Assembly (NCBI GenBank): GCA_030272155.1
Contig: CP126198.1
Coordinates: forward strand, 2,294,001-2,358,000
DNA: 64,000 bases
Reading direction: 5' to 3'
Source: Tetradesmus obliquus
Lineage: Eukaryota > Chlorophyta > Chlorophyceae > Sphaeropleales > Scenedesmaceae
Under the pieces are notes generated by a model. It was given only the letters and a program-made list of their open reading frames with translations, had not been told where the DNA came from and made no database searches. Shown here piece after piece: positions 2,584 to 62,702 of this stretch. The translations under genes were made by a program, and so were the position numbers. Numbering within the stretch: the first letter of the stretch is position 1; every line of letters begins with the position of its first letter.

Positions 2584-4957
2584 CTAGTGCTTCTCTGCAC
2601 TCTTTCTGCCGCCAGGCTTTTCATACACCACAGCGCTGGCAACACTCACCAGCTGCCCACCCAGATCAGCCAAGGTGGCGCTGCCTCCCTGGCCCCCTAG
2701 CCCAAAGCCAGCAGCACTGCTGCTCTGCAACTTGCTGCCACTGCTGCTGTTGCCGCCAGGCTCGAGTGGCTGATCTGCTGATGAACTAGCTCCTGCAGGA
2801 TCTATAGGATTCACTTTTGCCAGCAGTTCTGCTAGTGGTGGCAGCACACAAGCTGTGAGCTGGCCTCCGTACACGCAGCCTGTGTCCAGGCCTGTTGCAT
2901 AGGGGCAGTCCTGCAGCCGTCGCTTGGCGTCGTGCCCAAAGAAGACATGCTGAGGGCCTGCAGCAGCAGCAGCAGCAACAGCGGCGGCGGCGGCGGCGGT
3001 TGCGGCGTCATCATGCATAGGTGCAATCAAGACAGCACAGCTGCGGTGTGCGGCGTAGCACAGGCCTGGCGAAAGTTAAGCCAACCAGGAAGACGCTTGC
3101 AGGACGCCTAATACCATAGCCAGGTACAACGCAGAGCACTGGAAAGCAGCTACGCACAGGGAAGAGTTTGCATGAATAGCTTGCTGCTCACCCTGCCACA
3201 CTCCTGCCCACGCCTGGCTGCCTTCTTGCCCCTTCTCAAGGCCCTGCCAGCTGCAGCAGCAACAGCAGCAGCAGGGACAAGACACCAGATGTTTGGGACA
3301 GCAATATCTGGTAATAAACAGCCCTGCGGTCCACACATGCATAGCTGCTGCCTCAAGGCCGGCTCAACCCAGCAAGGCCCTGCCGGGTGCAACACCAGCG
3401 CTGCAAAGGATGCAGCACCTGCCCATCAAACAGCTGTGCAGGCACCCTACACCAACGCAGAGCTGCTTGGTGGCTTGATACAGTACAGCAAAAAACCCTT
3501 CACCATGTTCAGTGTGCTGCTGCCTCACCTGCCGTCTGGTGCCCGAAGCAGCTCCCGCATCTTAATGAGCATGGTCAGCTCTTGCTGCTGCAGCGGCACC
3601 CCTGGCTCCAGCCCGGCATGCACCAGCAGAATGTTGTAGCTGCAGGCAGAGGCACAGATGTATACAGCAGCGGTGTTGTGCTTTGTCCCGGTAGGGTGTG
3701 TTGCTAGCCTGCTTACATGCCGCGATTCACCTGTAGGCAATGCTGCAGCGTGTGTGATCGAGGTAGGTGTTAGGCGGGCATCAGTTGTTGCTGCAAAAGC
3801 ACCCCGGCACCAGGCCAGCGTGCACCACCAGGGTGTTGTGCCTGCACAAAGAGCAGATGATACTACACAGCAGCGAGTTTGACTGAGGACATCACCCAGT
3901 ACATGGTCAAACGCAACAGTCAAACATAACAGTCAAACATAACAACGCTTACCCCTGGACCTGCAGGCTGAAGGGCAAGCTGGCCAGAAACTGCACATCC
4001 TCCGGCAGCATCGACCCCACCCAGTGGTAATCGGTCAAACATAACGGTAAAGCAGAACAGCCAAACGTAAGGCTTACCCCTGGACCTGCAGGCTGAAGGG
4101 CAAGCAGGCCAGGGACTGCACATCCTCTGGCAGCATCAACACCACCCAATGGCAATCGGTCAAACATAATGGTCAAACATAACAATCAAACATAAGGCGT
4201 ACCCCTGGACCTGCAGGCTGAAGGGCAATCTGGCCAGGAACTGCACATCCTCCGGCTGCATCGACCCCACCCAGTGGTACTTGGCATCAACTGGCTGCTG
4301 CTGTGCATGCAGCCTTGCTGCTTCGAGTGCTGACTCATCATGGTTGCCCCGCACTGCCCAGGTGTGGAGCTGCGGGTTGCTGCACCACTGGCGCACAGTT
4401 GACACAACCTGCAGGATCATAGTGACACACAGATTACGGTGCATGCGGTGCATGTTGGTGCTGCGATAGTTAATGCTGGCTGGCTGTCAAGAGCTGCGCA
4501 TGTACAGCAGGTGTAGCTTACAGGACAGCAGCTGGAAGCAACATGTGCACGCATGCTTGCGGTGCAGCATGTGCCATCAGCAGCCTTGTGTGTTGATGGC
4601 CGACCAACATTTTCTAACAAAGACATGTAGCAACATGCAATGCCTACAGTTGCATCGCGCACGCCGAGAACAATCTGCCACAGCAGCCCTTCCTGCATTA
4701 ATCATTCCACAGCACAAGCAGGAGCAGCAGCAGCCAACACCACCCCCGCAAGGCTCCCACCTCTGCTGACTTTGGCCCCTTGTTCACAAGGTCTCCAACA
4801 AACACAAGGTTGTCGCTGCCACGCTTGAAATCCACTTCCTGCAGCAGCTGCTGCAGCTCATCCAAGCAGCCATGCACATCACCAACAAGCAGCAGCCGGC
4901 CGGGCCCCAGCTGCTGCTGCTGCACCACCTGATGCACCACTGGAGGCAGCGGGTTGC
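2584..4957 (-). CDS. ApaH-like (ALPH-type) metallophosphatase
   Basis: A calcineurin-like phosphoesterase of the bacterial-type ApaH-like group. The exons are 4761-4957, 4203-4408, 3529-3639, 3192-3250 and 2584-2957 (stop TAG), and they join in phase throughout. The metal-site motifs appear in order: GDVHG (exon 1), [10 protein letters not shown] (exon 1), RGNHD (exon 2), LVHAG (exon 3) and FFGHDA (exon 5). The stretch [17 protein letters not shown] spans the 3192 splice as in ApaH-like proteins, and [12 protein letters not shown] follows. Family members hydrolyse dinucleoside polyphosphates, capped RNA or phosphoproteins; which one applies here cannot be told. The C-terminal 70 residues are low-complexity. 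Exon 1 follows a strong acceptor (TTTCCTGCAG), so the true start is probably in an upstream exon between 4958 and 5839. Alternatively, ATG 5072 reads into exon 1 without splicing. A TGTAA on the minus strand near 2554 can serve polyadenylation. Confidence 0.88.
3789..3850 (-). repeat. Decayed copy of phosphatase exon 3 start
   Basis: This intron segment resembles the acceptor-proximal part of the exon at 3529-3639: shared blocks on the plus strand are CACCCC(T)GGC.CCAG, GCATGCACCA and a GTTGTGCCTGCA/GTTGTAGCTGCA end. It has lost the reading frame and is not needed by the gene model. Confidence 0.65.
3947..4279 (-). repeat. Triplicated 3' edge of phosphatase exon 2, 125 bp period
   Basis: Three copies start at 3947, 4072 and 4197, exactly 125 bp apart. 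Each holds the last ~75 bases of the exon (ending LPFSLQVQG) plus the splice donor. Only the copy at 4197-4279 is continuous with the rest of the exon and with an acceptor at 4408. The other two lie in the intron and have no acceptor. The spacers are built from repeats of GGTCAAACATAA (about 3903-3946, 4032-4048, 4159-4190), so a short minisatellite shares the same unit. Confidence 0.93.
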
Positions 4958-5839
4958 CTGCAGGAAAGGATGCAGAGAAAGTGCCGAAAGAATCAGCACA
5001 GACAAGTGCCCGGCATGTTATAATTGAACCTTGATGTTTTCTGGGGTTGAAAACGTGTGATTGCCACAACATATGCTCAAGCCATGAACAAGTTGGCTGC
5101 GCCGCTACACAGCTGCTGGGCTCCTTTGTGCGTGGGCGTTCAAATGCCTCTGATGCTCAGCTTACCGTACACCTGGTACTGCATACTTTGCCTGCTTGCC
5201 ACTCTCACGACCCGATTGCTGAGCAACGCGGCTACAGAGCAGTCCCTGATCAACTTGGCACTGCTGGCTAGTAGCATTCAGCAAGTGCTGGTTGCATGCC
5301 ATGTGTTTCCTACGTCACCTTTACGGAAGCAGCACTTACCTGATGGTGTGGTGCGCTGTTCTACACGAGGTGTCCTTTGCCTGCTGAGTGCTGACCTGCA
5401 GCTCCTTACAAACACAGAGAGCATGCCACCCATGCTGCTTGCAGGAGTCAGCTGCCTGCCAGTGTAGTTCTGTGCAACACGTGCAACACGCATCAATGGC
5501 ATCAGCCAGGCCGAAACGCCGCGTGATAAGGGTCAAGCAGTCAGGGAAGCTCCGGTTCGGGCGTGCACTGTGGTCTTTGGGGGCCGTTCCTGCACTACGC
5601 AAGTGCTGGTGTCATGGGTTGTCATGAGGGCTTTGTAACTGACTGTCACGTCGTACTGCGAGCTTCTGAAGTCTCCGAAGGCCTGCAACGTATGCTGATC
5701 ACACAGCCGAGACGTGCAGGGGCTCTTCATATGCTTTGACTTGCCGCACACGAAACCCTGCTTGGCCGCAGACACACTTCCCGGTCACAGCGTGCAGCGA
5801 GCTCAGTAGGGCATGCACATCTGATAACTACAAGCAAAC
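4958..5839. promoter_or_regulatory. Divergent spacer between phosphatase and NOB1
   Basis: The phosphatase points left and NOB1 points right, so this ~880 bp must hold both promoters and probably a first exon of the phosphatase. No core promoter motif is obvious. Open frames on the minus strand at 5336-5602 and 5533-5775 might contain that exon, but no junction is convincing. Confidence 0.4.
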
Positions 5840-7038
5840 ATGGCTTCTTGGGCGTCCATAGCGAAGGCCTCACCGCAGCCTGTAGCGGCTGCGCAGGACC
5901 TGGCCAGCACCGAGAACTTGCGGCTGCTGGTCGTGGATGCAAACGCAATCATCGGAGGAATAAAGCTGGAGGGTGTTGCAGACCGTGCAGTCACGATTCA
6001 GGAGGTGGTCGACGAAATCCGTGACAAGCAGTCTCGGCAGTTCCTGTCTGCCCTGCCATACCAGCTGCAGCTGTCTGAGCCAACAGAGGAGTCAGTGAAA
6101 GCAGGTGAGCGCGTGGTGAAGCAGTAAGTGTATATATAACTGTGTCTGGCTGCTAGCATGCTGAGAATCAGCCACGTCAAGGCTGCTTTTTGGCTTTGCA
6201 GGCCAGCCCGGCTGCTTCCAGGTGTCATCATGCCCATGCAGCTATGTCCTGCATTGAACCCACAGAACTAGCTGAAGCACACACGCTTATATCATTATTC
6301 GCATGACTCTAGCTGTGTTCATCACGCTGATGTACGCGCCTGCCCTGCTGTGTTGTTGCTTGTTGCTGGCAGTGACGCGCTTTGCGCGCGAGACAGGCGA
6401 CATCGCAGCGCTGTCCAGCATCGACATAAAGCTGCTGGCGCTCGCACACACGCTGGAGGCGGCTGCACATGGCACAGAGCACCTGGCAGCACACGCAGCA
6501 CAGGTAAGTATCCAGAAGTAGGCAGCGCCGCCAGCGCAGCAGCAGCAGCAGCAGCATTTGATGCTTGAAGTTTGAGATGTCTCCAAATGCTGCAGCGTCC
6601 AAGTGTGCTCTTTGTCAGCATGCATATGGTGCATGGGGAACAGCATGTTGCGCTGGAGGCTGCTGCAGTCGACTGCCCTGCCATTCGGCAGCTGAGTTTG
6701 TCTGCTTCACGTGCGTCTGTCAGGTTTGTGCAAGGCGCCAACGAAGTGTCGCAGAGCTGCTGAAACTTTTGCTGTGCTTGCATAACCTGCCGTATGCTGC
6801 TCCCTGCTGCCTGCTGCTGCAGCCTCGCATGCACAGCAAAGCCCTCGCATCATCAGCACCCATGCCCGGCTGGGGTCAGGTGTCCAACCCCGAAGATTGG
6901 AAGGTAGTGGATGAGGCAAATGAGGCAGACGAAGCAGCAGCAGCAGCAAGCACCAGCCGCATTGCGCAGCGGGTGCAGCAGCTGAGCTTAGACCCCTCAC
7001 AGCCTAACAGCTTCTTAGCAGAGGAAGTGCTGCCTCCC

Positions 7039-7069
<31 letters not shown>

Positions 7070-7209
7070 CTGTGCCAGTCAGCAGAGCTCCTGCTGCTGC
7101 TACCAATGCAGCTGGTGTGCAGCAGCAGCAGCAACATGCAGCAGCCGTGTCACAACCCTTGCCGCTGCAGCAGCAGCAGCAGCATCAAGCTGCTGGGCCT
7201 GCTGCTCAG

Positions 7210-7256
<47 letters not shown>

Positions 7257-7709
7257 GGAAGATGATGAAGAGGATGATGATGATGATGATGGTGGCTGGG
7301 GCACAGCAGCTAGCAGCAAGAATGCGGCTCGCAGGAAGAAGCGCAAGGAGTTCAAACGGCAGGAGCGGCAGCGAGCTTTTGAGCAGGAGTGGGAGGAGCA
7401 TGCAGCACTGATGCAGCAGCAGCAGCAGCAGCAGCAGCAGCCGGAGGCAGTGCTTGAGCCCCGTGTGCAGCAGCAGAACGGTGATGCAGCTGCTGGTGCA
7501 GATGTAGCAGCAGCAGCAGATGGGGCTGGCAGCGGCAGTGAAGGGGAGTCGGAAGACGGGGAGGCAGAGGGTGGTGACGAAGTAACAATAACAAATGACG
7601 ACCTGCTGGCGGCTGAGCACCAGGTGTACACAGCGGAGGACTTCGAGGAGGAAGATGAAGATGCAGCAGCAGCAGCAGCAGCAGCAGCAGATGCGGCAGC
7701 AGCAGGCAG

Positions 7710-7744
<35 letters not shown>

Positions 7745-9450
7745 GGTTAGGCCCTGGCATGCCAGGCTGGCATTCAAGTGTGGCATGTGTCACTGCAGAC
7801 TTTGCCATGCAGAATGTGCTGCTGCAGATGGGGCTTCGGCTGCTGACGCGCGACGGCCGGCGCATTGCGCGGCTGAGCCGTTACGCGCTGCGCTGCTCGG
7901 CGTGTTATAACGTTACACGGGAGCCGGGGCGGCTGTTCTGCCCCAAGTGCGGCAACATGACGCTGGATCGAGTGGAGGTGGTGGTGGGGCCGGATGGTGC
8001 GGAGTACTTTGGGGCACGCAAGCGACACATCTTGCGGGGCACGAAGTTCTCGCTGCCTAAGCCGCGGGTGAGTGCTACAGTTAGGGTTGTCGTTGGGTTG
8101 GCCAGCTGAAGGACGGCTGTCCATGCTTCTGTTTGTTAGTCAAGCTCATTGCTGTGCGTGTGTCTGGTGCAAAAGGCACCTGCTCTTGCGTGCTGCTGGT
8201 GGTGGGGCCGGATGGTGCGGAGTACTTTGGGGCACGCAAGCGGCACATCTTGCGGGGCACAAAGTTCTCGCTGCCCAAGCCGCGGGTGAGTGCTGCAGTA
8301 AGGGGGCTGTGTACAGGTTGTGCTTGTGTGCTGGTCATTGCTGCTGGGTGTGCGTGCTGGTGGCCTGTGTGTGTGATGCGGTTGTGCCTGGTTTAGTCAA
8401 GCTTACTGCTGTGCGTCTCTGGTGTAAAAGGCACCTGCTTTTGAGTGCTGGTGGTGGTGGGGCCTGATGGTGCGAAGTAATTTGGGGCACGCAAGCGGCA
8501 CAGCCTGCGGGGCACCAAGTTCTCACTGCCTAAGCCGCGGGTGAGTGCATACAGCTTATATTTGATGTCTGGTTGGTTGGTTGAAGGACCGCTGCTCGGG
8601 CACATGCCTGGTGTAGTCAAGCTCACTGCTGTGCATGTCTCGTGTATATGGCACATGCTGTATATGCGCCAGGCTGTGCACGGATGTATGTTGCAGCCGA
8701 CAGTCAGCTGCTGCCATACACTCATTATTGTATTGCCTGCTGCGCTGCCTGTTGTACTGCCTGCATTGCACTGCAGGGTGGCCGCAACAGCGACGACCCC
8801 GTGCTGCGCGAGGACAACATGCGCATCCATCACTGCCACTGCCGATTCAACTCAAGTACGCATTCAAGTTTGTACTGCCTGTGTTACGCTGCCATTGTTG
8901 TACCGCAGGGCGGCCGCACAGCAACGACCCCGTGCTGCGCGAGGACAACGTGCGGATCCATCACTGCCACTGCCGTAACAACTCAAGTGCTCAATCAAGT
9001 TTGTACTGTCTGTGTTGCGCCGCCTTTGTTGCACCGCAGGGCGACCGCAACAGCAATGACCCTGTGCTGCGCGAGGATGTGTTTCTGCTCAACCTGCCAA
9101 TACTTAATTTGATTAGTAGCTCAGTCTGTTCTGCCTGTTGTACTGCCTGTTTTATGTCGCAGGGCGGCCGCAACAGCAACGACCCCGTGCTGCGTGAGGA
9201 CGTGTTCCTGCTCAAGGTCAAAGCCCTGGGCAGGCGCGCCACAAAGAAGAAGCCAGCAGCAGATGCAGATGCAGATGCAGCAGCAGCAGGCGACGTGGAC
9301 CCCTTTGCGCCGGAGTTTTCGGCGGACACGTGGCACGTGCAGAGCCAGGCTGAGCTTGCGCAGCACCGGGGGCTGGCTGCGGTGCTACAGCCGGCGTGGA
9401 AGAACAACCCCAACGAGCGCAAGCTCACGCGCAGCAACAGGCGCGGCTAG
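5840..9450 (+). CDS. NOB1: NOB1, 20S pre-rRNA endonuclease
   Basis: NOB1 makes the last cleavage that turns pre-18S into 18S rRNA in cytoplasmic pre-40S particles. The exons are 5840-6104, 6373-6503, 6823-8067 and 9163-9450, and they join in phase to about 642 residues. The PIN domain is spread over exons 1 and 2 (LVVDANAIIGG, VDEIRDKQSR, LPYQLQLSEPT, then TRFARETGDIAALSSIDIKL). The zinc ribbon lies late in exon 3 (CSACYN...FCPKCG), followed by HILRGTKFSLPKP and, in exon 4, NDPVLRED and the basic end NPNERKLTRSNRRG. Between PIN and ribbon sits a ~300-residue linker full of Gln, Ala and Asp/Glu runs, which makes the protein longer than the roughly 410-residue human form. ATG 5840 is chosen because it precedes the PIN domain with no better upstream start. 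TGTAA at 9761 is the likely polyadenylation signal. Confidence 0.95.
7206..7260 (+). repeat. (GCA)n run inside NOB1 linker
   Basis: About 17 consecutive GCA/CAG triplets read as poly-Ala in the NOB1 frame, followed at once by an Asp/Glu run. A second long run lies at 7666-7742 (poly-Ala, then poly-Gln). Both are translated. Confidence 0.9.
7978..8550 (+). repeat. Triplicated 3' edge of NOB1 exon 3
   Basis: Copies of about 100 bp start near 7978, 8196 and 8448. Each carries VVGPDGAEYFGARKRH...PKPR and the donor CCGCGG|GTGAGTGC. The first copy is the functional exon end. The third has GAAGTAATTT where the gene has GAGTACTTT, which puts a stop in the frame, so it is a relic. The spacers also match in part (GGTGYAAAAGGCACCTGCT before copies 2 and 3), so intron sequence was duplicated as well. 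Confidence 0.95.
8745..9217 (+). repeat. Quadruplicated 5' edge of NOB1 exon 4, with its acceptor
   Basis: Exon starts follow CAG at about 8779, 8910, 9041 and 9163. Each is preceded by a pyrimidine-rich TTGTACTGCCTG-type intron end and begins GG(C/T)GGCCGCAACAGC with small changes. Only the last runs on into the full exon. Copies 1 and 2 share ATCCATCACTGCCACTGCCG, which the last copy lacks, so they descend from a common duplicate. Copies 1, 2 and 3 remain potential acceptors. Confidence 0.95.
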
Positions 9451-10559: not shown

Positions 10560-11394
10560 GTAGTTGTTGCTCAATTTCCGCAGTGGCTTCTCGCTCTCTC
10601 ACGCAAGCTTTGCGTGCTTATTGTACAATGTAGATATTCAGGTTTTCGGCTTCGTACAGGCATCTCATATGAACGCGGGAAGCACACCACTGCGCTTGCA
10701 TTTGCATGTGAAGCTGCATCTTCCTTCACACCACACATGTATGCTGTGGACTTCAGCAGGCTTGTGGTCAACTTGCAGCAAGCAACATGCAATGCAGAGT
10801 TGTGGGTCTAATCGAGCCAAAGCTGCAGCGCCGAACTGGTCTTTGGTCGTGAAGCTTCTGTTACAGGTGGTGCTGCTCCAAGCTGCAGCTGCTCAGCCTG
10901 CCAAGATAACACAGTGTGCAACAGCATTTTCAACCAATGCGACATGCCTGAATCTTGACCTCAAGCAGCATCATAGCAAACACAGCCACACGCCACTGCC
11001 GTGGAATACACCACTTGCCCGGCTAGGCCTGCATGCATGCATCCGCATGCAATTGCTATGTCGACATATGCATGCTACAGCTTGCAACACACACAGAAGG
11101 TGCCCACAGCTTGTGCATGGAGCGGCTGCCTCAACTTACTGTGCCTGGTTGATGCACAGGCAGCTGCCACATGCCACTGCATCAGCCTCTTCACGCAACG
11201 GTCATGTTCATCAGAATGCATCACGCAGCCTCATCCGCCGAGCCGGGCGGCTGCCTCTGCACATCATGCACACAGCGCACACTCCATGCAACACTGCCTC
11301 ACAAGCAAATCGAAGCTCACGCATGTCACTGCGCAGCTTCAACTGGCTCGCCAGCAAGGCACAGCTCACTAGAACAGCAGTACCGCACAACGCT
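10560..11394. other. Region between tRNA and the SPT5 3' end
   Basis: There is no supported gene. Long plus-strand open frames here (10564-11874) overlap the antisense of SPT5 and have no recognisable domain or coding bias. The right part is enriched in short direct repeats of CACACTGCGCAGC type (about 11385-11590). This is probably the SPT5 3' UTR and downstream flank. Confidence 0.5.
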
Positions 11395-11625
11395 CAGTGC
11401 GCCTGCAGCTTGCCCAGCATCATGCAGCACTGCCCTGAAGCAAGGCTCACACTGGCTCGCACAGCGCTAGCGCTCACTGGCTCGACAGCAACACGCACTT
11501 CACACTGCGCAGCCCTCGCTTCACACTGCGCAGCACACACTGCACAACTCACACTAGTGTGCAATACCGCACAGCTCACACTGCGCAGCCCTCACTGCGC
11601 CTGCAGCTTGCCCAGCATCGTCCTG
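11394..11625 (-). repeat. Duplicated 3' terminus of SPT5 coding sequence
   Basis: The last codons and stop context of SPT5 (MLGKLQAQ, 11592-11616) recur about 200 bp downstream as MLGKLQAH at 11396-11420. The spacer holds several CACTGCGCAGC-type repeats. Confidence 0.85.
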
Positions 11626-14600
11626 TCTATCACATCGCCGTCCTCCAGCACCGCATCCCCTCCATCAAACGTCATCACCTCGCCCACCTTGCCCGCCTTG
11701 TCCCCAAACACCACCTTCACGCGGTCCTTCTTATCCACCTCCACAAGCTCAACCACCTCTAGCACCACAACCTCCCCACCATCAAGCGGAATCGCCTCCA
11801 GCTCGCCATTCGCCCGAATATCCCCGCCCACTCCCACCCCCCCACCCGGCAGCTTCACCAGCACGCCGCGGTAGTCCGGCCCGCGCTGCGCGATCGGCGC
11901 CGGCGGCCGCAGCCCGCCGCCGTCAGCCGCCAGCCCACCGCCCAGCCCACCACCCAGCCCCGGCGTGCTGGCCACGCCGCCCTCCAGCCCTGGCGTGAAC
12001 GCCAGCGAGGGAGTGATGCCTGGGGTGTAACCGGTAACCATGCCGGGGGTTGCGACAGTGCCAGGTGTGGCACCCATGCCTGGTGTTGGCTGGGCGTAGT
12101 AGGCATCACTGCCGTAGCCGCCTGGCCCGCCTGCTGCGGGGCTTGGGGCAGGCATGTCAGCGCCGCCGGGCGTCTGCGCGGGCGCGTAACCTGCGTGTAT
12201 GCGTGGGCAGTGAAGCGGGTAAGATGAAGGAAGTGAGGCGGTGTAGAGCAGCGGAGCTGATGCTGGGAGGCCGTGCACTGTATAGGCAGCGGCCAAGAGG
12301 AGCAGGCATGCTGGGTGACGCAGCGAGCAAGCCACGCAGCATTAGCAGCAGCACGGGCAGCAGCGCACAGCAGTATGGACGCCGAGCGCAGCACATGTGC
12401 ACAGCCTGTCATGCCTGGCACACTGTTGCATCCAAACGACCACTGCTTGAAAACAAGTAACAGGCATCCAATTTTCTGTGTACGTCCGCCCTCCACGACA
12501 GTATGTAACAAGTGTACAAGAAGCACCCACCTCCTGGTGTGTAGGCTGTCACGCCGTAGGCGTCTGCACCGCCAGGGGTTGCTGCCATTGCGCCTGGTGT
12601 GCGGGCATTGCCTGGATCTGCATAGCAGCACACACCACACAGGAACAGACATAAGGTTGCGGGCGCCAGGAAAGCAAGGTCTGCGGAATAACACCCTCAC
12701 AAACTATTGAGGGACGCAGGTGATGACAAAAACACTACAGAATAGACAGCAGGCAAAGCTTGGTGCATCTGCCACTACTAGGGCCCTGCCGGCACTGAGA
12801 ATGCACACTGGCCGGTGATCAACATGTTACGTGGATGGCCAGCTGCACAGACGGCTCCTCTTTTGCAGCCTCCACATGCTCACACCCCATGCCACCACTT
12901 CCTGCCACCACACCACACTAGCATATCTCGCCATCGCAACATGCACCCAGCCTCCCCATCCGCACCTGCAAACGCACCGCCGGGCGTCTCCGCAGTGCCA
13001 GGCGTAGGCGCCGGCACGTAGCTGCCCAGCCCACCAGGTGTTGACGCCACCGCACCGCCCGGCCCACCATAGCCGCCGAAGCCGCCGGGCGTGGCAGCCG
13101 CTGGCGGCGGCGGGCCCCTGCCGCCTGCTGCTGCTGCTGCCCCGCCATAGCCGCCGCTGCCGCTGCCGCCCCAGCTGCCAGCGCCTGGTGCTGCTGCATA
13201 GTAGTCTGGTTCGGAGCTTGGGTGTGCTGGAGTCATGCCTGGGTGCATGGGTGTCATGCTGGGGTGCATTGGCGTCATGCTCGGGTGCAGAGGAGTTGCG
13301 CCGCCCATGCTGGGGTGCAGGGGAGTGGCGCCGCCCATGCTTGGGTGCAGCGGTGTCTGCAGCGGCAGCATAGAGCCACAAGCAGCACAGCAGCGACAGT
13401 GGCGGCAGGCAGGCAGTAGCAGGTAAGAGTTGTGCAGCAGGCATATCACAGCAGTCCCCGTCATGCCTGGGTGCATTGGCGTCATGCTGGGGTGCAGTGG
13501 CGTTGCGCCGCCCATTCGGGGGTGCAGGGGTGTAGCACCACCCATGCTTGGGTGCAGCTGCGTCTGCAGGCTGGGGAGAGCAACAACAGAACGGCAGCAG
13601 TGACAATGACAGCAGGCAGGCAGCAGCAGTTTGAGTTCTACAGCGTATGGCAGTCCCCAAAGGAGCAGGTCCACGCCGAGCTGCAGGCTGACAGCACGAT
13701 CGTGCGAAACTCAAAAGAGAGCTGCAGGCGGCAGCCACCACTACTTTGTCGTGCTGAACGCTGGCCGCAAGTCTGGTCGACACTCGCGCTGCCCACCCTG
13801 AGAGATATGGCGCCAACAACTTCAACCCCTTCAACAACCTCACTTAAACCAACCAATGCCCATGCAGCAGTACCAGCAGCAGCAGCAGCCTACCTGCATG
13901 GCATGCGCCGGCGTGCGCGGCACGCCGCCTGCAGCAGCTGCTGCAGGGTTGAAGCCCCCAAAGCCTCCCATGGGGCCGCGCCCTGGCTGCTGCTGGCATT
14001 GTCGGTGACACTTCGCTGAGCACTTCGGTCACCGCGCAACTTTGTGATTGACAAAACCACACTGGAACCAACCAATGCCCATGCACCACCACCACCACCA
14101 CCAATCTGCGCAGCCCTCACCTGCATAGCATGTGCCGGCGTGCGCGGCACGCCGCCTGCAGCAGCTGCTGCAGGGTTGAAGCCGCCAAAGCCTCCCATAG
14201 GGCCGCGCCCCGGCACAAAGCCTCCCCTGCCTGCTGCCATCATGCCGCCGCCGCGGCCGGGTGTGCCGAGCACGTCTTGCCGCTTGACTGTCACAATCTT
14301 GTTGATCGCATCAAGCTCTAGCTGCAGGTGTGTGGCGGTCTCCTGCTTCACGCGGCCCTTGTAGCGTGCGTATGGCCCGCCGCGCACCTGCAGCAATAAC
14401 AAGATATATGACACGCAACGACAGTGTGTGACGTGAAGAGTGCGGCACATGTAACAAACACGTGGGTCATGTGCAGCTAAGTGAATGAATGGCTCAACAG
14501 CCTCATGTTTGCAAGGCAGCTGCCTGGATTATGATGACAGGATGACTTCCATCATCTCATTGTTTTACTTATACAACCCTATCACACCACCTGAGCAAAG

Positions 14601-15569: not shown

Positions 15570-15605
<36 letters not shown>

Positions 15606-18600: not shown

Positions 18601-19128
18601 TGCAGAGAACACTGTTACATCACTACCCAGCCTCGGCATGTAGCTGCTACAAAACAACTGCCAAGTCTCCAATTCCTCACCCTCCGGCGTGTTGAGGTCT
18701 CCCGCCACCACCACCACGCGGTCGCCCTTCACATTTGAATTTGCAAATAACAACCACGACCTTTTTATAAATGCTAACCCTCCAGTGTGTTGAGGTCTCC
18801 CGCCCCCCCCCCACCACGCGGTCGCCCTTCACATTTTGAATTTGCAAATAACAATGAAACCCGTCTAGAGAGCTCACCCTCCAGTGTGTTGAGGTCTCCC
18901 GCCACCACCACCACGCGGTCGCCCTTCACATTTTGAATTTGCAAATAACAATGAAACCCGTCTAGAGAGCTCACCCTCCAGGGTGTTGAGGTCTCCCGCC
19001 ACCACCACCACGCGGTCGCCCTTCACGTAGGTGGCCTTGGGCGCGCCGCCATCAGGCAGCGCCTTGAGCAGCTGCTTCAGCCCAGACGTGGGGTCCTGCA
19101 AAGGCACCAGGCACAGCCAGCAGCAGTT

Positions 19129-19161
<33 letters not shown>

Positions 19162-19579: not shown

Positions 19580-19621
<42 letters not shown>

Positions 19622-50097: not shown

Positions 50098-52717
50098 CGT
50101 CATCTTCATGGGCATCCAACCCAGCAGTATCTGCCACAAGTGCTGCTGCCTCCGCAGGAGTAGGAGCTGCATCAGCAGCAGCTGCAGCACCGATGGCTGC
50201 CAGCTGTTCCAGCGGCGCCGGAAGCGGGCATACGTCGAACAAGACGTGCGGGTGTGTGATTATGGGCACGTGGATTCGGTGGCCTCGCTTTGCGTAGCCG
50301 CCGCTGTCAACGTGCAGTTTGATGTCACTAGTGCCTGGCTTCATGAGGGCGAATTGGATGCGCACGATGTTGCGGGCGTCTGCAGGGCCCAAGATCTGCG
50401 AATGTACATACACAGACAGTGGATTTGTGTGGAAGAAGTCAATACACGCAGTAATGAGGGTTTGCAGGAAGGGTGGCGGCACGCAGCAGCAGCAGAGCAG
50501 AGTGAGTCGAAGGTTCTGCAGGGGTCCATGTGTCGTCGTGCAGCTTGATGTCGCTTGTGCCTGGCTTCATGAGGGCAAATTGGATGCGCACAATGTTGCG
50601 GGCGTCCGCAGGACCCAGAATCTGCAATTGTGCAGACACACAAACAACAACTATGTGAGCGAATTGATTGCGCACAGTGAGGGGGTCTGCAGGACCCAGG
50701 GGGTGCCCTTTGAAGAGTGTTTGCAGGAAAGGTGGCGGCAGGCAGCAGCAGCAGCAGCGCAGCGTGAGCCGAAGGCTTTGCAAGGGACCGGTTGTCAACG
50801 TGCAGCTTGACTCAAGACATCATCGGATGTCATTGGTGCCTGGCTTCATGAGGGCGAATTGGATGCGCACGATGTTGCGGGCATCCGCAGGACCCAAGAT
50901 CTGCGAATGTGCAGACACAAAACAGGACAGTATGTGGGGTGGTTGATTGTGCATAGTGTTGAAGAAGTCCGAAGGACCCAGGGTGTGGCCTTTGAAGAGT
51001 GTTGACAAGAATGGTGGCGGCAGGCAGCAGCGGCAGTGCAATGTGTCAAATTAGCTTCTGATATTCGACCGCACAACCACGCAACAACTTTGGTCCGCCC
51101 ACCTCATGCAGCAGCGGCTCCAGCTCTGCCTTGAAGTAGTCATACTAGGAAAGGTGGTACACCACCTCACTAGTGTTTTTGAATGTTCCAAAAGTAACAT
51201 AACAGTAGCATAACAGAAGGGCTGTTCACCTCGTGCAGCAGCGGCTCCAGCTCTGCCTTGAAGTACTCGTAGTATGGGAACTGGTACACAACCTCTCCGT
51301 TGTTGTCGCTGAACAGCAGCACCATGCCATCGACCCCAGGCTTGAAGCGCTCCATGTTGCTGTTGCGGCCGTTCATAACAGCGTTACTAACGGCCTGCTC
51401 CTCCTGCAGGCGAGCATTGAGCACCATCAACACCAGCAGGGCGGCAGAAGAGCTTTTACAGGTCGGTGAAGCGCTCCATGTTGCTGTTGCGGCAGTTCAT
51501 GACAGCATTACTAACGGCCTGCTCCTCCTGCAGATGGGATAGGCCAGTGCAGACTGATTAGTACGGCTGGGTAATGCAGAGCTTCCAGTGAGGCGGATTT
51601 TCAATGCTGATGCATCAGCGCTGGTATGGCTGCTGTGTAGACCGCTACGTTCTACATGTCAGCTGCAGGCAGTTGCAGCGAGCAGCTGCACAACTGCACA
51701 GCTGTGGTCTTGCGGACCAGCGTGCAGTTCTATCAATGAGCAATCATCACAGCTGTTTCAACATACACATCAACCAGGCCGCACCTTGCTCCACATGGCT
51801 GGGGGCATGGCCAGCAGCTTTGCTTTTAATGCGCTGATGTCAGCATGGAACAGCGGCAGCTGCAGCCCTGCAGCCTCCGCATAGCTGGTCAGCTTGGGCT
51901 CGATGTCCAGCCTGCAGCAGCAGCGGCGGCAGCAGCAGAAGCAGCAGCGGCAGCAGCAGCAAAAAGGCAGTATCGGTGTGGTGCTGAGGACTGTGCTGCT
52001 GACTGCACGGTTAGCAGGGCATGCCATTACTAACACGTACATGCCAGCATACTGTGCTCGCAATGCGTCTGCATTGCCTGCTGCCACAGGAGCATCAACA
52101 ACGCATAACCAGGGATTTTGATAGACGTGCGTTGGGTGCTGCCCCTCACCTAGGCCAACCGCTGCTCCAGTAGTTGGTAGGCCCCAGGTGTGGCGGGTGG
52201 TGCCCCGCTGCTGTGTTCACAGGAGCACTACTTGCAAAACGGCTCGACTGATACACCTCTACACTGCATGCCGCAAACCTCAGCGCTTACATTTTAAGGT
52301 ACAGCATTATGGTGCTGCTTACCTGGGCCAACCGCTGCTCCAGTAGTTGGTGGGCCCCAAGCGTGGCGGGTGGTGCCCTGCTGCTGCCAGGTGTGCAACA
52401 GCAGCATCCACCATGGCTGCACTGTCTGGCAGCACTAGGGGTCCCAGTGGCTTGAGGTGGGAGGCTGGTGCAACTTGAAGTGTGGCTAGAGAGTGAGGTA
52501 TGCCAGCTGTTGTTGATGTTGCTGCAGTGGGATGTCCAGAGGGTCCTGTGATAGATTGTAGTGCTGTCACTGCTGCTGCTGCTGCTGCTGCTGCTGTGGT
52601 GTCTGATGCGTAGGCGCTTTCTGTGTGGTGGGGTAGAAGTGGAGCAGCAGGGTGTGGGCGAGTGAAAAGAGCAGGGTCAGCGAATGTATTGAAGATGCGG
52701 GTGGTGGTGCTGAGCAC
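48461..52717 (-). CDS. Aspartyl/asparaginyl beta-hydroxylase family protein
   Basis: A 2-oxoglutarate- and iron-dependent dioxygenase family that hydroxylates Asp or Asn residues in animals. Exons: 52323 to about 52717 (ending LGPTNYWSSGWP), 51785-51911 (LDIEPKLTSYAEAAGLQLPLFHAD), 51230-51403 (EEQAVSNAVMNGR...YEYFKAELEPLLHE), 49759-50395, 49337-49534 and 48461-48939. All six join in phase. The core is in exon 4: ILGPADARNIVRIQFALMKPG, the iron His in KLHVDSGG, GHRIHVPIITH, then a ~100-residue Ala/Ser/Gln insert, then EGLVFELNNRVQHKVAN with the second His. The next exon supplies RVHLVVDVFEDYRP. The insert between the two iron-site halves is unusual. The start codon is not found; the first exon opens without an ATG before MVDAAVAHL, so a targeting exon upstream is likely. 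Confidence 0.88.
49178..49420 (-). repeat. Duplicated 3' edge of hydroxylase exon 49337-49534
   Basis: LQEGMDEAALAAEIQLLLATAG with donor (49337-49402) recurs as LREGMDKAALAAEIQLLLATAG at 49180-49245, about 157 bp away, with several synonymous changes. The relic has kept an open frame. Confidence 0.94.
50298..50985 (-). repeat. Up to five copies of the 5' edge of hydroxylase exon 4
   Basis: ILGPADARNIVRIQFALMKPGTSDI with acceptor occurs at about 50320-50395 (functional), 50550-50623 and 50826-50901. Two more diverged pieces (LGPADPLTVRNQFAHI at 50655-50703, LGPSDFFNTMHNQPPHI at 50940-50986) alternate with them. The alternation suggests a two-part unit that was itself duplicated. Confidence 0.92.
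51095..51540 (-). repeat. Duplicated edges of hydroxylase exon 51230-51403
   Basis: The donor side (YFKAELEPLLHE) recurs at 51102-51143. The acceptor side (EEQAVSNAVMN.RNSNMERF) recurs at 51466-51530. The exon is thus flanked by relics of both of its own ends. Confidence 0.93.
52140..52390 (-). repeat. Duplicated 3' edge of hydroxylase exon 1
   Basis: PPRLGPTNYWSSGWP with its GTAAG-type donor (52319-52375) recurs at 52146-52200 with GTGAGG as donor context, about 177 bp away. Confidence 0.92.
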
Positions 52718-53843: not shown

Positions 53844-55995
53844 CTAGACGATCATGTACATATAACGTTGCTGCAACTCATCAGGGGCATCGAACAACTG
53901 GCTATGAACATCTGTGGGCCCTATGTGACAGACACTGCATGAAACATGGGCGCGAGAGACACAATACAAGAATAGAAAAAGAAAACAACACAAAAACACA
54001 GTGCCTGTCACGCACCACTCTCCTCCACAGCAGCTTGTTCCTCATGAGGTCAAAGGCGGCCAGCTCGCCATGGCTGTCAGCACTGTCACGCACAGACCTG
54101 AAGAAACAGCAGCAGCAGCAGCAGCAGCAGCGTAGCAAGCAGCAGCGGCATGAAAATAACACTGGTGATATGCCACTGGCAGGTGTGTGCAGGTGCCCTG
54201 AGGCAAGCTTGCACTGCTCAGCACCTAAAGCTACGCAGCCCCAGACTGTGTATGATTCCAAATTATGCTGCCTCTCATGTCAAAACCAAGTACGCCACAG
54301 GGGAAATCCACACCCCTCACTCTGAGGTGCAAACCTCTCAAACCCGTCCTCTGTACCAAGCTCTCAGACCCTCTCAGAGCAGGACCCACAAGGAACTACG
54401 CCCTCCATGAAACAGGCTGCCTGCCCACCTGTGGCTCCAGGTGGTGATGCCAAAGTAGGCAATATCATCCAGCACGGCAAGGCCCTTCAGGAACTTGCCC
54501 TCCTCTGGCACCTGGCACAACCACAGCAGCAATACATGCAGCGTGTCGGCAACAATGCAATCATTTTGCTTTGTGGTCCAGCACTGCCAGGCCCTTCAGG
54601 AACTTGCCCTCCTCTGGCACCTGCACGCAACACGGCATGGAGTGCATGCACTGAGCCGGCACCACAATGGAGTGCATGGACTGTGCCGGCACCACAATGC
54701 TGCTATGTCGTAAGCAAAGTGTGGTAGCACTACAGGTGTGCACATGCACAAGTGTATGAAGGGATCCAGGCCGAGCAGCGCTGCATTGTCAGAGTCAAGC
54801 ATGATTATCGTCTGCTGCTGCCACCCCGGCCTGCCGGGCGGAGCCATTCTACAAAACGAATTTTTCAGCGCACTTTCCCTGCATGCACCTGCACTGTGCA
54901 GCTCTTTGCTTGCATCCCACACTTGACCAAAACCTACAACAGCGTCACACCAGGCCAGCCTCACCTGCCACAGCTCCACCTCATCACCAGTGGCAGGGTC
55001 CAAACTGACTAGCGCAGCATTGTCAGAGTCCAACAGAATGAGCTGCTGCTGCCCCTGCCTGCCCCAAGCCACCAGGCCATGTGCCTTGCTGCCAATGTTG
55101 CGGATGCGGGACACCTCATGGGGAGGGCTGGAAGGGCCCACATAAACTTTGACCAGGTCACTCTGCGGCATGGCAGTGCAGTTGGTTGTTGTTCAGATGG
55201 GGTTTCAGGTGTTGCGGATGCGACAGACTTCATGGAGAGGGCTGGCAGGGCCCACAAACACTTGACCAGGTCACTCTGCACATCAGCAGTAATGCAAGGT
55301 GTTACATCAAGGGGTGTGTCAGGCGCTACATGTACAGGCTGTCGGCTGGCAGGAGGGCAGCAAATTGTGTTTGTGTGTCGTATACTTGACAGCAATGGCA
55401 TCTCTAAGTAACGTTTGCGTAGACCTGCTGACATATCGAAGCGCCGCGACAGGAATGCAAAGGCAAATGTTGTACAAGGACCTCAGAAGTGCTGCCTGTC
55501 TACAGCCACTCACTGGGCCCAGGTTGTGCAGCATCACCCACAGATGATCATCGTCAGCAGCAGCCAGTGTGTTGGGGTGGTCTGCCTCGCTGAACAGGTG
55601 CATCTTGCGCAGCTGCAGGCAACGGGGCAGGCAGCAGGCAGCAGGTCAACGTTTGCACGCAACTGCACTCTGTTCACGCAGGCGCATTGTGTGCAGCAGC
55701 TTCTGCTAAGTGAGCTGAAAGTATGTGCACACTGCTGTTTACCACTGTCGCGTCAATACCCAATAGCAAAGTGTGCATGTCCAGACAGCAGATGCCCCAG
55801 CCAACTGGCAGACACAGCCGTGCAAGACATGGCTGCCATCATTCTTCATTGCAACAGCTGCTGCTGATGGTGATGCCTACTGCGGTTTCCTCAATCACGC
55901 ACCAGTTTCATGCCTGGGTATGACAGCTCCAGTATGGAGCCGTCTCCTGTGCTGCACACATACACGCGCTCACCCATGCGGATCTGCACCGACGC

Positions 55996-56045: not shown

Positions 56046-57565
56046 CCAGCAGAAGCCTGTCAGTCTATGAGCACTGCCCTGCCCTGCAGTCAGCAGTAAC
56101 GTACTGCTGCCTCTGTTGTTTGGCAACAGGGCTTGCTGCTGCATGACATACACACAAACCAGCTGGCTGCCGGCAACATAAATCAATTGGCCTTGGGCAC
56201 GGCCATGGCATGCAGGGCGATCATATGCTTTCAGGTGTCACATGCTGCCACATCAGCAGCAGCACCGCCTCACCGCATCGTGAGTGAAGCGAGTAGGCAG
56301 CTGCACACGCGCCAGCTCCATCCCTGCAGCCAGGGCAGCCGCCGCCAACAAGTTAACAATCATCACCACATTGGCATGCACAGGTGGTTGAAGCTGGGTG
56401 GCCTGTACAACGTGTCATTGCATGCATTGTGATGGACGTGCTGCGGTGGTGCAAACTGCGGTGACAATACCTTCTATTAGGCTGCTTGGGCTTACAAGCA
56501 AAAGCAGTCGCTGCGGCCGATGTGCCGGCTGTTGTTTTGGGCTGTCAGGCCTCCAGATGCAATTGTGACATGTTATGTTGGGCATCGCACCTGTGTCTGC
56601 GTCAAACTGCACCAGGTGCTCCTGCTCGCTGGTGGGCCGCCAGTTGTGGGGCCGCAGCACGTTCCACAGCGTGCGGGGGTGGCCGGCCACAGGCTCCCCA
56701 GGGAACATACCATAATGCACACCCTGCAGCAGCAGCAGCAGCACCAGCAGCAGCAGCAGCAGCAGCACCAGCAGCAGCAGCACCACCACCAGCAGCAGCA
56801 GTGGGTTGTCACAACCTCCTGGCAGGAAGTTAGGCTAGCGCTGTTCACGCTGTGGGTGTGTACAGGTGCAACAAAGACAGGTCTTTCAAGCGCAGTACGC
56901 TGTACATAGCAGCAACTACTGTGCTTGCAGCCTGAGCTGCAACTCCCCAATAGCCTGCAACAGCAGGGTGGCTTGGCCGCGTATTGTATGGTGCCTCACC
57001 TCTCCCCTGTGCAGCTCCTCCATGGTGTCATACTACTGTGCTGACGGTAAGCAATGCGAATATAGCACCATGTCAGCCGGCAACAGCTATGTGTGTTGCC
57101 GCCTTACCTCTCCCCTGTGCAGCTCCTCCATGGTGTCATACTGCGGGTAGTACCAGGCCAGCACCTGCAGCGCCAGACACAAACAGCAGTTTGCACAATC
57201 AGCCAGTAAGTACTACTTATGTAGTACACACCAGGGAGGCACCTCTCAGGATCATCTAAGCAGCATTTCCTAGATGCAAAGCACTGCACAGAAAAGTGTC
57301 AGGTTGCTGCGCGTAGTACCAAGCCAGCACTTGCAGGGCCAGACACACACAGCACACACGCCTTGGCAACATGTATGCACAGTCATTCGGTAACAGCTCC
57401 AGGAGATAATCACTCAAGAGAACCGCAGAATTACTGTCTGCATGCAGGGCGCGGTAGGTGGATGCTGGCGCACACAATCAGCAGGCCTCTCAGCACTCAC
57501 GTTGTGTGTAGCCAGCAGCAAGCGGTGCGGCACAACCTCGGACAGCCTGCCAGACTGCTGCTGCA

Positions 57566-58101: not shown

Positions 58102-60224
58102 AGAGCATGGCATGCTTCCAAATCTACAAGGGAGCCGTACGGCTGGCAGCAGGCATGTGCTGTATGTGTGTGGCCAGTATTGTACTGCATGACGCAAGAT
58201 GCAGCGGCTCACCCGCAGAACCTGCTGCAGCTGTCGCCTTATCCTGTGCCGCAGCGGTTTGACCTTGTCTGCGCCATAGTCAACCTGTCCAGGTGGCTCT
58301 GCTGGGATAGTCCAGCTGTCGCTGCCATGGGTGCGGTGCAGGTGAGCTGAAATGACTGATGCTGTTGCCATTGTCTTCCAGGAACAAGCAGCGTCAGCGT
58401 CAGCGTCAGCAGCAGCAGCAGCAGCAGCAGCAGCTGGGGCTCTGTCTGCGTGCAGTGCTGCTGCAGCTAAGTGGACAGGGGTGGCAGCACAGAGCGCGAG
58501 CAGTGCAGGAGGAGCAGAGCTCAACGCTGTATGAAAGTTTTCAGTGAGTTAGTTTGCTTTTCGAGTGAGAATCGCACGTTGCAGGCCGGTTTTGGTTCAC
58601 GACGGAAGCCGTTGTGTCGCTCAGTTGCAGTGCAACAGGCTACGCAGCAGCCACATCATCGATACGCATATGCACAACAGAAAAGATCGCTACCCACGTG
58701 CCTTTGTGGTCAATGATCAGCGCGTGTGTGGCCATTACGTGCAGCTTGCAGGAAGTTCTGCCTGTCCAAGCGTTGGACAAGTTGAAGATCATGGCACCCT
58801 GGTAGCTGTCGAACTTCGAAGATCTAAAGCAAATTCACGGGGTTGTATTCAAATATTGATTGTTGACATTACATTGTCAGGCTGTGCTTGACCGGCTGTG
58901 CGGAATTCGAAGTCACGATATGGAGGGTGGTTGTTGACCCACATCAACCACCCGTGGAGGGTGGTTGTTGACCCACATCAACCACCCGGTGCACACAACG
59001 AGAGACGTGATTACGTGGCTGTCTCCTGGTGCTGTTTGCAACATGAGGCAGTTGTACATACAAGGGCCACACAGGTGCGATGCGCACCAGTCTTATTGCA
59101 GTGACCGCCCAAGCAACATCATTGGTGCGGTGGTACCGCAGGTGCCACATGCCCAGTGGGCAATAACCCCATCAAGCAAGTAACCAAGGTGCAAGTGAAA
59201 GTCGAAGACATCAGCCATCTTTTGTTGAAAGCACTTTACAGGTTGCAGGGACCGTCCCTTCGAAGTGACAGCCCTGAAATGCATGGAAAGCAACAAGATG
59301 CCAGCAGTGCTGCATGCGGCAGCAGTACGCATCGCACTGCAAGCACCTGTCACCGGTGATCATGCAACGAATTGCAGCCCATTTGAACTATAATCATGGC
59401 CAAGCACCGGCTACGCGCAGAGGCACGCACCATGCACCATCGGCGCTGAAGAACAAGGTGCACTGCTGCAGACCTTGCACACAACCACGCACACAAAGCT
59501 CGACAAATCGACAGAGAAGCGTCCTGCAGCAGCCGCCGCTGCACCGCATCCCTGCTGGCATAGCTAGTACCCTGTTGCTGGTGCCCTGTCGGTGCTCTGC
59601 AGGCCGCGCCTGCCATGCAGCCGATGTCACTGCCGCCGCTGCTGCTGTAGTAAGCTGCAGAGTTGCGCCTGGCCCAGCTGCTCAGCCGAGCTGCCGCTGC
59701 ATGTGCCGCTGCATTCGCTGCCCACGGCACCCATCACCCACAGCTGCTGCTGCTGCAACAAGTCGACACCGGTGCAGCATACAGCACAACAAGAGTAACA
59801 TCCAGCTGCTGCACTGCTTGCAGCAGCGGCTCCTTCTGCTGCTGCTGATGTTGCTGCTGCAAGCCGTGCACAGCGCTTGCGCGGCTGCTGCTGTTGCTAC
59901 TGCTGCTGGTAATCACCACAGTTTCCAACAGGCGTCGCTCATCCCGCCGCTCCTGCCGCTGCTGTTGCTGATCACAGCAGCTCCCAGCAGGCGCCGTGCA
60001 CCCTGCTGCTGCTGCTGCTTGTGGTGGTCACAGCAGCTCCTACATGTGGCGCACACCCTGCTGCCGCCGCTGCTGCTGCTGCAGCTGCTGCTGCTGGTGG
60101 TGGGTACAGCAGCTCCCAGCAACTGCCGCGCACCCTGCCACTGCTGCTGCTGCTCAACCTGCTGCTGCTACTCACCCTGCTGCTACTGATCTCCCTGCTG
60201 CTACTGCTTGCCTGCTTTGCTTGC
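58102..60224. other. Stretch without a supported gene
   Basis: No domain-bearing frame. It includes CAG-rich and CTG-rich segments (58400-58430, and 59815-60195 with many near-repeats of CTGCTGCTG...CACAGCAGCTCC). The 3' UTR of the transporter must lie at its right end. A plus-strand frame at 58565-58891 has no low complexity but no recognised family either. Confidence 0.45.
58921..58988. repeat. Two exact 34 bp tandem units, each a hairpin
   Basis: 58921-58954 and 58955-58988 are identical. Within each, GGGTGGTTG pairs with CAACCACCC around TTGACCCACAT. It is outside any supported gene. Confidence 0.93.
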
Positions 60225-60400
60225 CTCACCCAGCTTGATCTGCAGGTATCATACGATGCCTGCCATGGCGCAGCCCAGTCCTGCTGCCGCTGCTGCTGCT
60301 GCTGCCGCTGCTGCTACTGCTTGCCTGCCTTACTCGCCTCGCCCAGCTTGATCTGCGAGTACCACACTATCCCCGCCATGGCGCAGCCCAGTCCTGCGAG
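60225..60400 (-). repeat. Duplicated 3' end of the transporter coding sequence
   Basis: The sequence for the last ~25 codons of the transporter (GLGCAMAGIVWYSQIKLGEA.KAGK) at 60319-60400 recurs at 60205-60285 with substitutions, about 115 bp downstream of the gene and beyond its stop. Exon-edge copying thus also affects an intronless gene. Confidence 0.9.
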
Positions 60401-61591: not shown

Positions 61592-62529
61592 GCTGCTGCC
61601 TGTGATGCGTCCTGCTCAGCTTCAAGCAAAAAGACTTGTTTGCAGATTAAGAAAGAGGGAAGAAGCGTACAGTACGGAGTGCACAGTAACTGCCACGAGC
61701 AGTTGAGACTTCTCTCTGACAGAAACGGGACGTATAGTGATTGCAAGGTGCGAGCCTAACACTACGTGCTGATCACTCCTGAGTTCATGGAGGCATGGAG
61801 GTCTGGCAGGATGTGGTCTGGCAGGATGTAACACGTACGGAGTGTCACTCACTCGATTTCAAAGTGGTAGTCAGCCCTTCTGCATAAAACCAAGCAGATA
61901 AGCTCAAATCACCAACACAGGCATCCAGCAGTGCAGGCTACGGCTGACACACCTAGTATCCAGGCAACACACACAACTCCAGCACACCAGCCTGACTAGG
62001 GTTGTTCTGTTCAGCAGAGCTGATGACAACACCTGCCAGCATGCCAAGCAGAGCACGCATCATGCACGGAGTGATATTGCGCTGCTGTACACAGATATAG
62101 TCGCTCAGACCACAACCAACAACAGCCCGTGCAGCCGCCTGCAGGGTGCAAAGCTTATAATTGTTCAGCTTGCAAGCTGGCGTATCCAACATCACGGCGT
62201 GCACATGCAGCAGCAACATCACAAAGCAGCATAACACATGGCCAGGTACAACAGCCTGCAGCAACGCAAGAAAACTCACACCTTGACTTTGCTGGCTTGC
62301 TGTGCTAGGCACGCGCTAGGCCCAGCACAGCACAAGTGTAACTTTGATGTACTGCCACTGGCACTCGTCCTGCCACCCTAGCGCTGTAGGCACAGAAAAT
62401 CTGTAACAGAAAGCCAGGCTCATCAAACATGTCAGGGCTGCCAACAGCAAACAAACTACCACCCCTGGCTCCTGGCAAGTCACTGCATACCCAGCCTGCT
62501 GACTCTGCACATCTACAGTTCATCCTGAA
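61592..62529. other. Intergenic stretch right of the transporter
   Basis: It holds the transporter promoter on its left side. There is a small direct repeat of GTCTGGCAGGATGT (61801-61828). No gene is supported. Confidence 0.5.
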
Positions 62530-62702
62530 CAGATGCTAGGCTGCCTGCTGACTAAACGAGTTGAGTCACAATGCCCCCTCACCACCAGCTTCCTGCAAGG
62601 CATCATGCCAAGATTGCCTACCAGATGCTATGCTGCCTGCTGACTTGTTGTGCTGAGTCACAATGCCTCCTAACCACCAGCTTTCCTGCAAGGCATCATG
62701 CC
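62530..62702 (-). repeat. Tandem duplication at the zinc-finger gene stop
   Basis: Two units of about 80 bp (62530-62609 and 62624-62702) share CAGATGCTA.GCTGCCTGCTGAC, GAGTCACAATGCC and CAAGGCATCATGCC. The right one overlaps the stop region of the zinc-finger gene, so the left one is a copy of its 3' end and UTR. Confidence 0.92.

Follow-up and report, generated by a model that had tools for sequence, protein, structure and literature searches.

Exon-edge repeats in the window

The stretch of Tetradesmus obliquus contig CP126198.1 analyzed here (64,000 nucleotides, positions 2,294,001 to 2,358,000; hereafter the window) carries intron-containing genes in which an exon end, its splice site and part of the adjoining intron are repeated in tandem. 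Domain matches support window genes for SPT5, NOB1, a metallophosphoesterase and a member of the triose-phosphate-transporter family (all Pfam), and an EI24-like gene gives a match to Pfam EI24 (1.7e-5) that lies under the Pfam cut-off. A further gene model at 11592-13338, downstream of SPT5, is probably the 3' part of the same gene, as its position and TPGG-like repeats suggest. The SPT5 proteins in PDB align to single copies only of the peptides that are repeated in the SPT5 gene.

Self-comparison of the window (E<1e-6) yields 86 off-diagonal matches, all of them direct and 83 less than 1 kb apart. A more sensitive set (E<1e-3, offset 50-1000 bp) resolves into 42 direct-repeat clusters. When these were read by eye, from up to two printed repeat pairs per cluster, 31 included a clear donor or acceptor junction. 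Two others lie at the stop-codon end of a gene, two are coding, three are intergenic and four are uncertain and might also include a junction (starting at 22679, 24101, 54777 and 62530), whereas none is clearly wholly intronic. Automatic classification with our home-made gene model gives 29 splice-edge, five start/stop-edge, four intergenic, two coding, one intron-only and one mixed cluster. The tandem copying of exon edges that a sequence-only reading of the window had proposed is therefore real.

The gene models come from a simple hidden Markov model (HMM), self-trained on the window plus 20 random 10-kb stretches of the genome (200 kb), and are not an annotation. Its splice consensus is sensible (donor mostly GTGAG, acceptor TGCAG). 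The HMM first called intronic copies as exons, and 42 such redundant-copy exons were dropped automatically. By the automatic classes, the five genes with domain matches (one weak) contain 21 clusters: 19 splice-edge, one start/stop-edge, one coding and none intron-only, although by eye one of these splice-edge calls, that in the transporter gene, is a stop-codon end. The SPT5 region (13800-25400) contains 13 clusters (11 splice-edge, one start/stop-edge, one coding, none intron-only).

The arrays have a fairly uniform build. Among 53 pairs from the window and the random stretches with an offset of <=300 bp, the exon part has a median of 50 bp (10-90% quantiles 29-90 bp) and the offset a median of 131 bp (interquartile range 123-174, 10-90% quantiles 98-240). 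A typical duplicated unit thus comprises about 50 bp of exon and about 80 bp of intron. Donor and acceptor junctions are hit in balance (32 versus 34 of 66 junction pairs). The coordinates of the individual arrays are collected in Table 1. In the array at 18483..19026, the intron part of the nearest copy is identical over the 45 bp compared.

Table 1. Genes and repeat arrays of the window, numbered from its first nucleotide
Position	Strand	Feature	Remarks
3525..5184	-	metallophosphoesterase gene (HMM model)	Pfam Metallophos 1.1e-14
3582..3875	-	acceptor-type pair	offset 203
3905..4279	-	donor-type array, 3 copies	unit 125 bp (~75 bp exon end + donor + 50 bp intron)
5840..9450	+	NOB1 gene (PIN + Zn-ribbon)	Pfam 1.3e-22, 1.2e-22
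7970..8659	+	donor-type array, 3 copies	NOB1 intron; offset 218
8745..9215	+	acceptor-type array, 4 copies	same NOB1 intron as 7970..8659; offset ~130
10468-10549	+	tRNA-Leu (CAA)	ARAGORN and Rfam gathering scores; sole window gene that either reports
11382..11619	-	duplicated 3' coding end + stop codon of model 11592-13338	within 3' flank
13890..25348	-	SPT5 gene (HMM model)	Pfam NGN/KOW on two pieces; PDB SPT5
14933..15135	-	acceptor-type pair	56 bp, 96%
16010..16501	-	acceptor-type array, 4 copies	start of SPT5 KOWx exon
16741..17242	-	donor-type array, 3 copies	
17709..18246	-	donor-type array, 3 copies	intron of real exon without clear homology
18483..19026	-	donor-type array, 5 copies counting real exon	unit 97-98 bp
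19047..19343	-	acceptor-type array, 3 copies	
19805..19968	-	donor-type pair	35 bp, 97%; intron parts without detected homology
20253..20565	-	donor-type array, 2.5 copies	unit 123 bp, 96%; genome search matched own array only
20817..21371	-	donor-type and acceptor-type arrays	
21513..21828	-	donor-type, 3 copies	farther copy more similar
26994..27534	+	donor-type array	copies at 130, 251, 375, 433 bp
27955..28329	+	acceptor-type array	
32488..32740	+	acceptor-type array	in EI24-like gene
33979..34404	+	acceptor-type array	unit 113 bp
39606..39917	+	acceptor-type, 3 copies	
49176..49413	-	donor-type pair	80 bp, 91%
50305..51040	-	acceptor-type array, 3 copies	genome search matched own array only
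51100..51533	-	donor-type pair + probable acceptor-type pair	
55096..55323	-	acceptor-type pair	unit 114 bp
56993..57354	-	donor-type pair (98%) + acceptor-type pair	
59953..60397	-	duplicated 3' coding end + stop codon	triose-phosphate-transporter-family gene; by eye (automatic class splice-edge)
62530..62702	-	pair, splice-site content uncertain	unit 92 bp

The arrays at 11382-11619 and 59953-60397 indicate that coding borders other than splice sites are hit as well. Repeats of other kinds are also present. Two intergenic short-unit minisatellites lie at 36490-36888 (about 21 bp, with a higher-order period near 128 bp) and 47336-47498 (about 19 bp). A CAG/CTG-rich coding region at 31061-31709 includes an exact 89-bp repeat (31396-31617), and (CAG)n runs are frequent in other exons.

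Genome-wide extent and excess at exon borders

The random stretches were drawn from a searched genome of 104.66 Mb in 17 contigs and range in GC content from 0.53 to 0.61; the published T. obliquus genome is 107.7 Mb with 57% GC (PMC5966456). They yield 113 direct matches at 50-1000 bp, four further matches at more than 1 kb and four inverted hairpins of less than 50 bp, whereas Markov-5 control sequences yield no matches. Repeats cover a mean of 8.9% of the bases, although seven of the 20 stretches lack any direct match at 50-1000 bp. The window is richer than average, with a mean coverage of about 18% in its six full 10-kb pieces. The 200 kb of random sequence contains 33 splice-edge clusters, which extrapolates to about 17,000 in the genome. 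The earlier proposal that this is a property of the genome rather than of a gene family is supported.

A second set of 13 non-overlapping gene-centered loci, reached through kinase and S41-protease hits, places 19 of 20 clusters within 6 bp of predicted exon edges, and six of these loci have no cluster. Array load varies between genes beyond chance (p=0.001; 69 of 239 introns in 45 genes carry arrays), the extremes being 0 of 15 introns in one L034 gene and 14 of 23 in SPT5. No correlation was observed between load and GC content at third codon positions (GC3). Thus, the arrays are genome-wide but uneven.

Several simpler sources of the repeats were considered and rejected. A mobile or dispersed element is disfavored for the units tested because neither of two units used as queries had a match in the 104.7 Mb genome outside its own array, within the limits of the search, and because only eight matches link different random stretches, compared with the 113 local ones. 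Low complexity does not account for the repeats, since the BLAST runs used dust masking and Tandem Repeats Finder (TRF), run without it, is concordant. Nor are these short-unit minisatellites, given the median offset noted above and given that short-unit arrays are separate and intergenic. An assembly artifact is unlikely, judging from the divergence of the copies, as only one of 143 nearest pairs reaches at least 99% identity and the median is 84.7%.

The placement of the arrays is strongly skewed. The window and the random stretches together contain 62 splice-edge clusters, four intron-only clusters and eight intergenic ones. When units of the observed sizes are placed at random on introns from which surplus copies have been subtracted, 47% of intron-touching arrays are expected to be wholly intronic, and about 1.9 intergenic arrays are expected per edge cluster. 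Exon borders are therefore enriched about 14- to 15-fold relative to both introns and intergenic DNA. Even the four intron-only clusters include two short-unit minisatellites, one exon edge that the model missed (by eye) and one uncertain case. TRF arrays with a period of >=60 (n=27) are distributed similarly, with 18 splice-edge, four start/stop-edge, three intergenic, one coding and one intron-only. The size of the excess hinges on the HMM, whereas its direction is the same in the domain-supported genes.

Detection bias was rejected as the cause. With 0.03-0.09 substitutions per site and lineage, 0.98 of the simulated edge arrays and 1.00 of the intron-only ones were detected; the corresponding rates were 0.93 and 0.90 at 0.12, 0.88 and 0.68 at 0.15, and 0.45 and 0.10 at 0.20. 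Integrated over these ages (0.03-0.20), the bias is about 1.1-fold, although still older arrays would favor edges more. We also found no hint of a link to methylation in the observed/expected CpG ratios, which are similar in coding (0.51), intron (0.50) and intergenic (0.55) sequence. The excess has three candidate causes: arrays with a conserved exon as anchor may survive longer, junctions may be a hot spot, or duplications may be born in exons and be removed from coding sequence.

Formation and fate of the copies

The matches at 60-1000 bp are overwhelmingly direct (250 versus six inverted) and they are local. Tandem duplication across splice sites, as the sequence-only reading proposed, is the best description of the pattern. 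Young arrays at 20253-20565, 18676-19026 and 3905-4279 are arranged head to tail with the intron part included. When pairs were anchored at the junction and the splice consensus was excluded, the intron parts of 28 of 59 pairs resembled each other more than did unrelated same-type introns (rank<=0.02); a looser null gave 33 of 59 (p<=0.02).

Divergence indicates what becomes of the copies. Over 143 nearest pairs, the differences between retained exon and intronic copy amount to 7.4% at codon position 1, 6.9% at position 2 and 18.0% at position 3, and noncoding sequence differs by 15.8% from its noncoding counterpart. A difference of about 7-9% is expected when one partner is neutral and about 16-18% when both are, so the copy appears near-neutral and the exon appears to change mainly at silent sites. 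In agreement, copies diverge from each other 1.40 times as much as from the exon (32 edges). On this evidence, most intronic copies appear to be relics that evolve much like neutral DNA. Of the exon-part indels in these pairs, 88 of 121 are frameshifting. Two points of the sequence-only reading are weaker or fail. Splice sites are mostly retained (AG in 20 of 26 acceptor copies, and GT in 27 of 32 donor copies), and decay with distance is not supported. Among 34 edges with at least two copies, the best copy is the nearest in 17, the farthest in 14 and tied in three. At L019:5615, for example, there are five copies of a donor edge including the real one, of which the farthest, 588 bp away, is identical over 44 bp and the nearest only 96%.

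Reading frames extended through the copies were rejected as an explanation, because offsets that are multiples of three are not in excess (remainders of 0, 1 and 2 in 14, 15 and 24 of 53). One protein allows a direct comparison. The protein predicted at L014 matches PDB 1fc7, the photosystem II D1 protease, differing in two places within residues 19-392 once 16 residues added by the gene model and a mis-modelled start are set aside. This entry is from Scenedesmus obliquus. In the gene, an exon start and its acceptor form a tandem pair with a spacing of about 94 bp (L014:1773-1957). The solved protein contains the corresponding peptide a single time, encoded by the copy that leads on into the exon.

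These findings are probably best explained by ordinary, recurrent small tandem duplications that straddle exon-intron borders. A segment spanning the border would be duplicated in tandem, either by fill-in of a staggered break and end joining or by replication slippage, both of which fit the data. The event would be tolerated because the splice site is copied along with the exon edge, such that the copy continuing into the exon keeps splicing while the surplus copy becomes intron and decays neutrally. Arrays could then expand and contract through unequal exchange or slippage between copies. With the real exon as a fixed partner, the exon part and splice consensus would hold homology longer than the intron part and may exchange sequence with the copies. 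In our preferred, though unproven, view, this anchoring on the exon accounts for the build-up of arrays at edges and for the frequent cases in which a copy other than the nearest one is the most similar. Tolerance at any border between coding and noncoding DNA predicts cases such as the two window clusters at stop-codon ends.

Several observations weigh against this explanation. Random placement combined with tolerance cannot alone give the observed concentration at edges, and the HMM on which that figure depends assigns 37% of the sequence as coding, probably too high in view of the 15.7% published for T. obliquus (PMC5966456). Intron homology was not detected in 26 of 59 pairs (rank>0.05; five lie between the two thresholds). 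Such pairs are found across the range of exon identity, from low to high, and include some with 93-98% BLAST identity, for which plain duplication and neutral decay are insufficient. Beyond the junction, their similarity frequently breaks off after a few bases, and the residual similarity of their introns is weak (median z 0.51, Kolmogorov-Smirnov p=0.02) and could reflect composition. Old duplications whose exon parts exchange sequence with the real exon would fit both these introns and the missing distance gradient. However, in arrays of full units the exon similarity is not above that expected from selection on one copy, giving no direct sign of conversion there. Finally, differences are shifted toward third positions beyond what full neutrality of the copy allows (285 at positions 1+2 versus 359 at position 3, where equal numbers are expected). 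The resulting per-site ratio of positions 1+2 to position 3 is 0.40 rather than 0.5, a small but significant departure.

One tentative alternative is that junctions themselves are the target of duplication, in gene-dependent units of about 130 bp that include the junction and are duplicated at a much higher rate than other DNA, with the copies kept in step with the exon edge while the intervening introns drift. A somewhat less likely possibility is that transcription, splicing, R-loops or nucleosome positioning focuses the birth of breaks and duplications at splice junctions. Such a hot spot would account for the roughly 14-fold excess over introns and intergenic DNA, which persists in the long-period TRF arrays and in the five genes with domain matches, and for the junction lying inside a unit of fairly narrow size. 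The differences in load between genes are also what a process linked to transcription or chromatin would give, although load is uncorrelated with GC3. A splice site is not needed, given the arrays at stop-codon ends and the few in intergenic DNA, and young arrays may derive from exchange inside old ones, in which case their position at edges would call for no hot spot.

It is doubtful that the duplications arise mainly in exons, where selection would purge the coding ones and leave visible those that overrun an edge. This scheme would explain the cases at stop-codon ends as well as the depletion in introns and in intergenic DNA, and in-frame coding repeats do exist, with the best offset divisible by three in six of 12 coding-only clusters. 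This proportion is little different from the four of 12 expected by chance, however, and under uniform placement the unit should contain more exon than it does (mean 71 bp predicted, 60 bp observed).

We consider it very unlikely that the copies serve as functional alternative exon edges under regulated splicing. Splice dinucleotides are retained in 47 of 58 copies, and the 36 gapped pairs without a detected extension are poor in indels (three in the exon part) and lean to third positions (42 differences at positions 1+2, 61 at position 3). Yet frame is not conserved among exon-part indels overall, divergence by codon position is near neutrality, offsets show no preference for multiples of three, unrelated genes are affected and the D1 protease protein is made without the copy. 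The least probable source is short templated insertion or cDNA capture, by which exon edges would be copied into nearby introns without their own intron: it would suit the 26 pairs without clear intron homology and the frequent end of their match a few bases beyond the junction, but about half of all pairs clearly carry the intron part, and the near-absence of inverted copies, which this route might often be expected to produce, argues against it even for the pairs whose introns are not homologous.

Intron growth and related systems

Arrays lengthen existing introns. Array-bearing introns have a median of 379 bp, which falls to 240 bp after crude removal of surplus copies (73 introns), compared with 239 bp for array-free introns (182 introns). 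Over all 255 introns, the mean falls from 341 bp to a crude 280 bp. The published mean for T. obliquus of 462 bp, against 230-302 bp in four other green algae (PMC5966456), fits such lengthening.

New introns are another matter. The arrays had been suggested as raw material for intron gain of a published type. In the Rogers/Hellsten model (Hellsten et al. 2011), an exonic unit is reportedly duplicated and the ends of the new intron match the opposite exons. Tandem duplication there, as here, yields extra copies of splice sites, whereas the two-sided signature is found in none of 231 introns in our set. One-sided matches between the upstream exon end and the intron 3' end occur in one of 231 introns, and between the downstream exon start and the intron 5' start in five (1.2 expected for each). 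The latter, a small excess, lie at L019:7456, L027:8855, L030:6844, L034:8981 and window position 56064. The data thus do not favor a role of the arrays in intron gain of this type.

Minisatellites also consist of tandem units that expand and contract. The arrays described here differ in having mostly two to five copies, long units and an anchor on a functional exon edge. In Chlamydomonas reinhardtii and Volvox carteri, tandem repeats have been described close to intron-exon junctions (G3 2013, PMC3887541). In these green algae, as in ours and unlike in land plants, repeats are densest in introns and commoner toward intron ends. The motifs named in the accessible part of that paper are short (<=17 bases), and that part describes neither units made of exon edges with splice sites nor neutral decay. 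In potato, a single intron arose by duplication of an intron-exon segment (2016, PMC4974935). That duplication runs from the 3' part of one intron into the beginning of the following exon and so doubles the acceptor together with its signals, much as in our acceptor-type arrays, and the same gene has an 83-bp duplication within an intron. The potato case is one event, verified by RNA-seq, that created a new intron and inserted exon sequence, whereas here there are about 17,000 clusters by extrapolation and existing introns are lengthened.

A possible source of such duplications is known from staggered breaks, which are filled in by CST/Pol alpha-primase and joined to give small tandem duplications (PMC8355091). 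These are likewise local and direct, although they were studied with nickase breaks in mammalian cells, with 50-bp overhangs at one target, and the accessible part of that report makes no link to splice sites. An earlier description of a genome-wide pattern like the present one was not found among the titles and abstracts returned by searches of open-access literature, subscription papers being mostly outside the search. The kind of event is known; what is new is its scale (33 splice-edge clusters per 200 kb) and its restriction to exon edges.

For gene prediction, the surplus copies are misleading, as the 42 redundant-copy exons in the HMM used here illustrate. For T. obliquus itself, the arrays represent a route by which introns lengthen independently of mobile elements; in the sequence studied, they make the average intron about 60 bp longer. 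They also provide many natural experiments in splice-site choice, in which a real site competes with near-identical copies, exon context included, about 100 bp apart. If junctions are themselves the target of duplication, the spliceosome would be constantly choosing among several near-identical sites. If the bias toward borders is mutational, the formation of duplications would be tied to gene structure.

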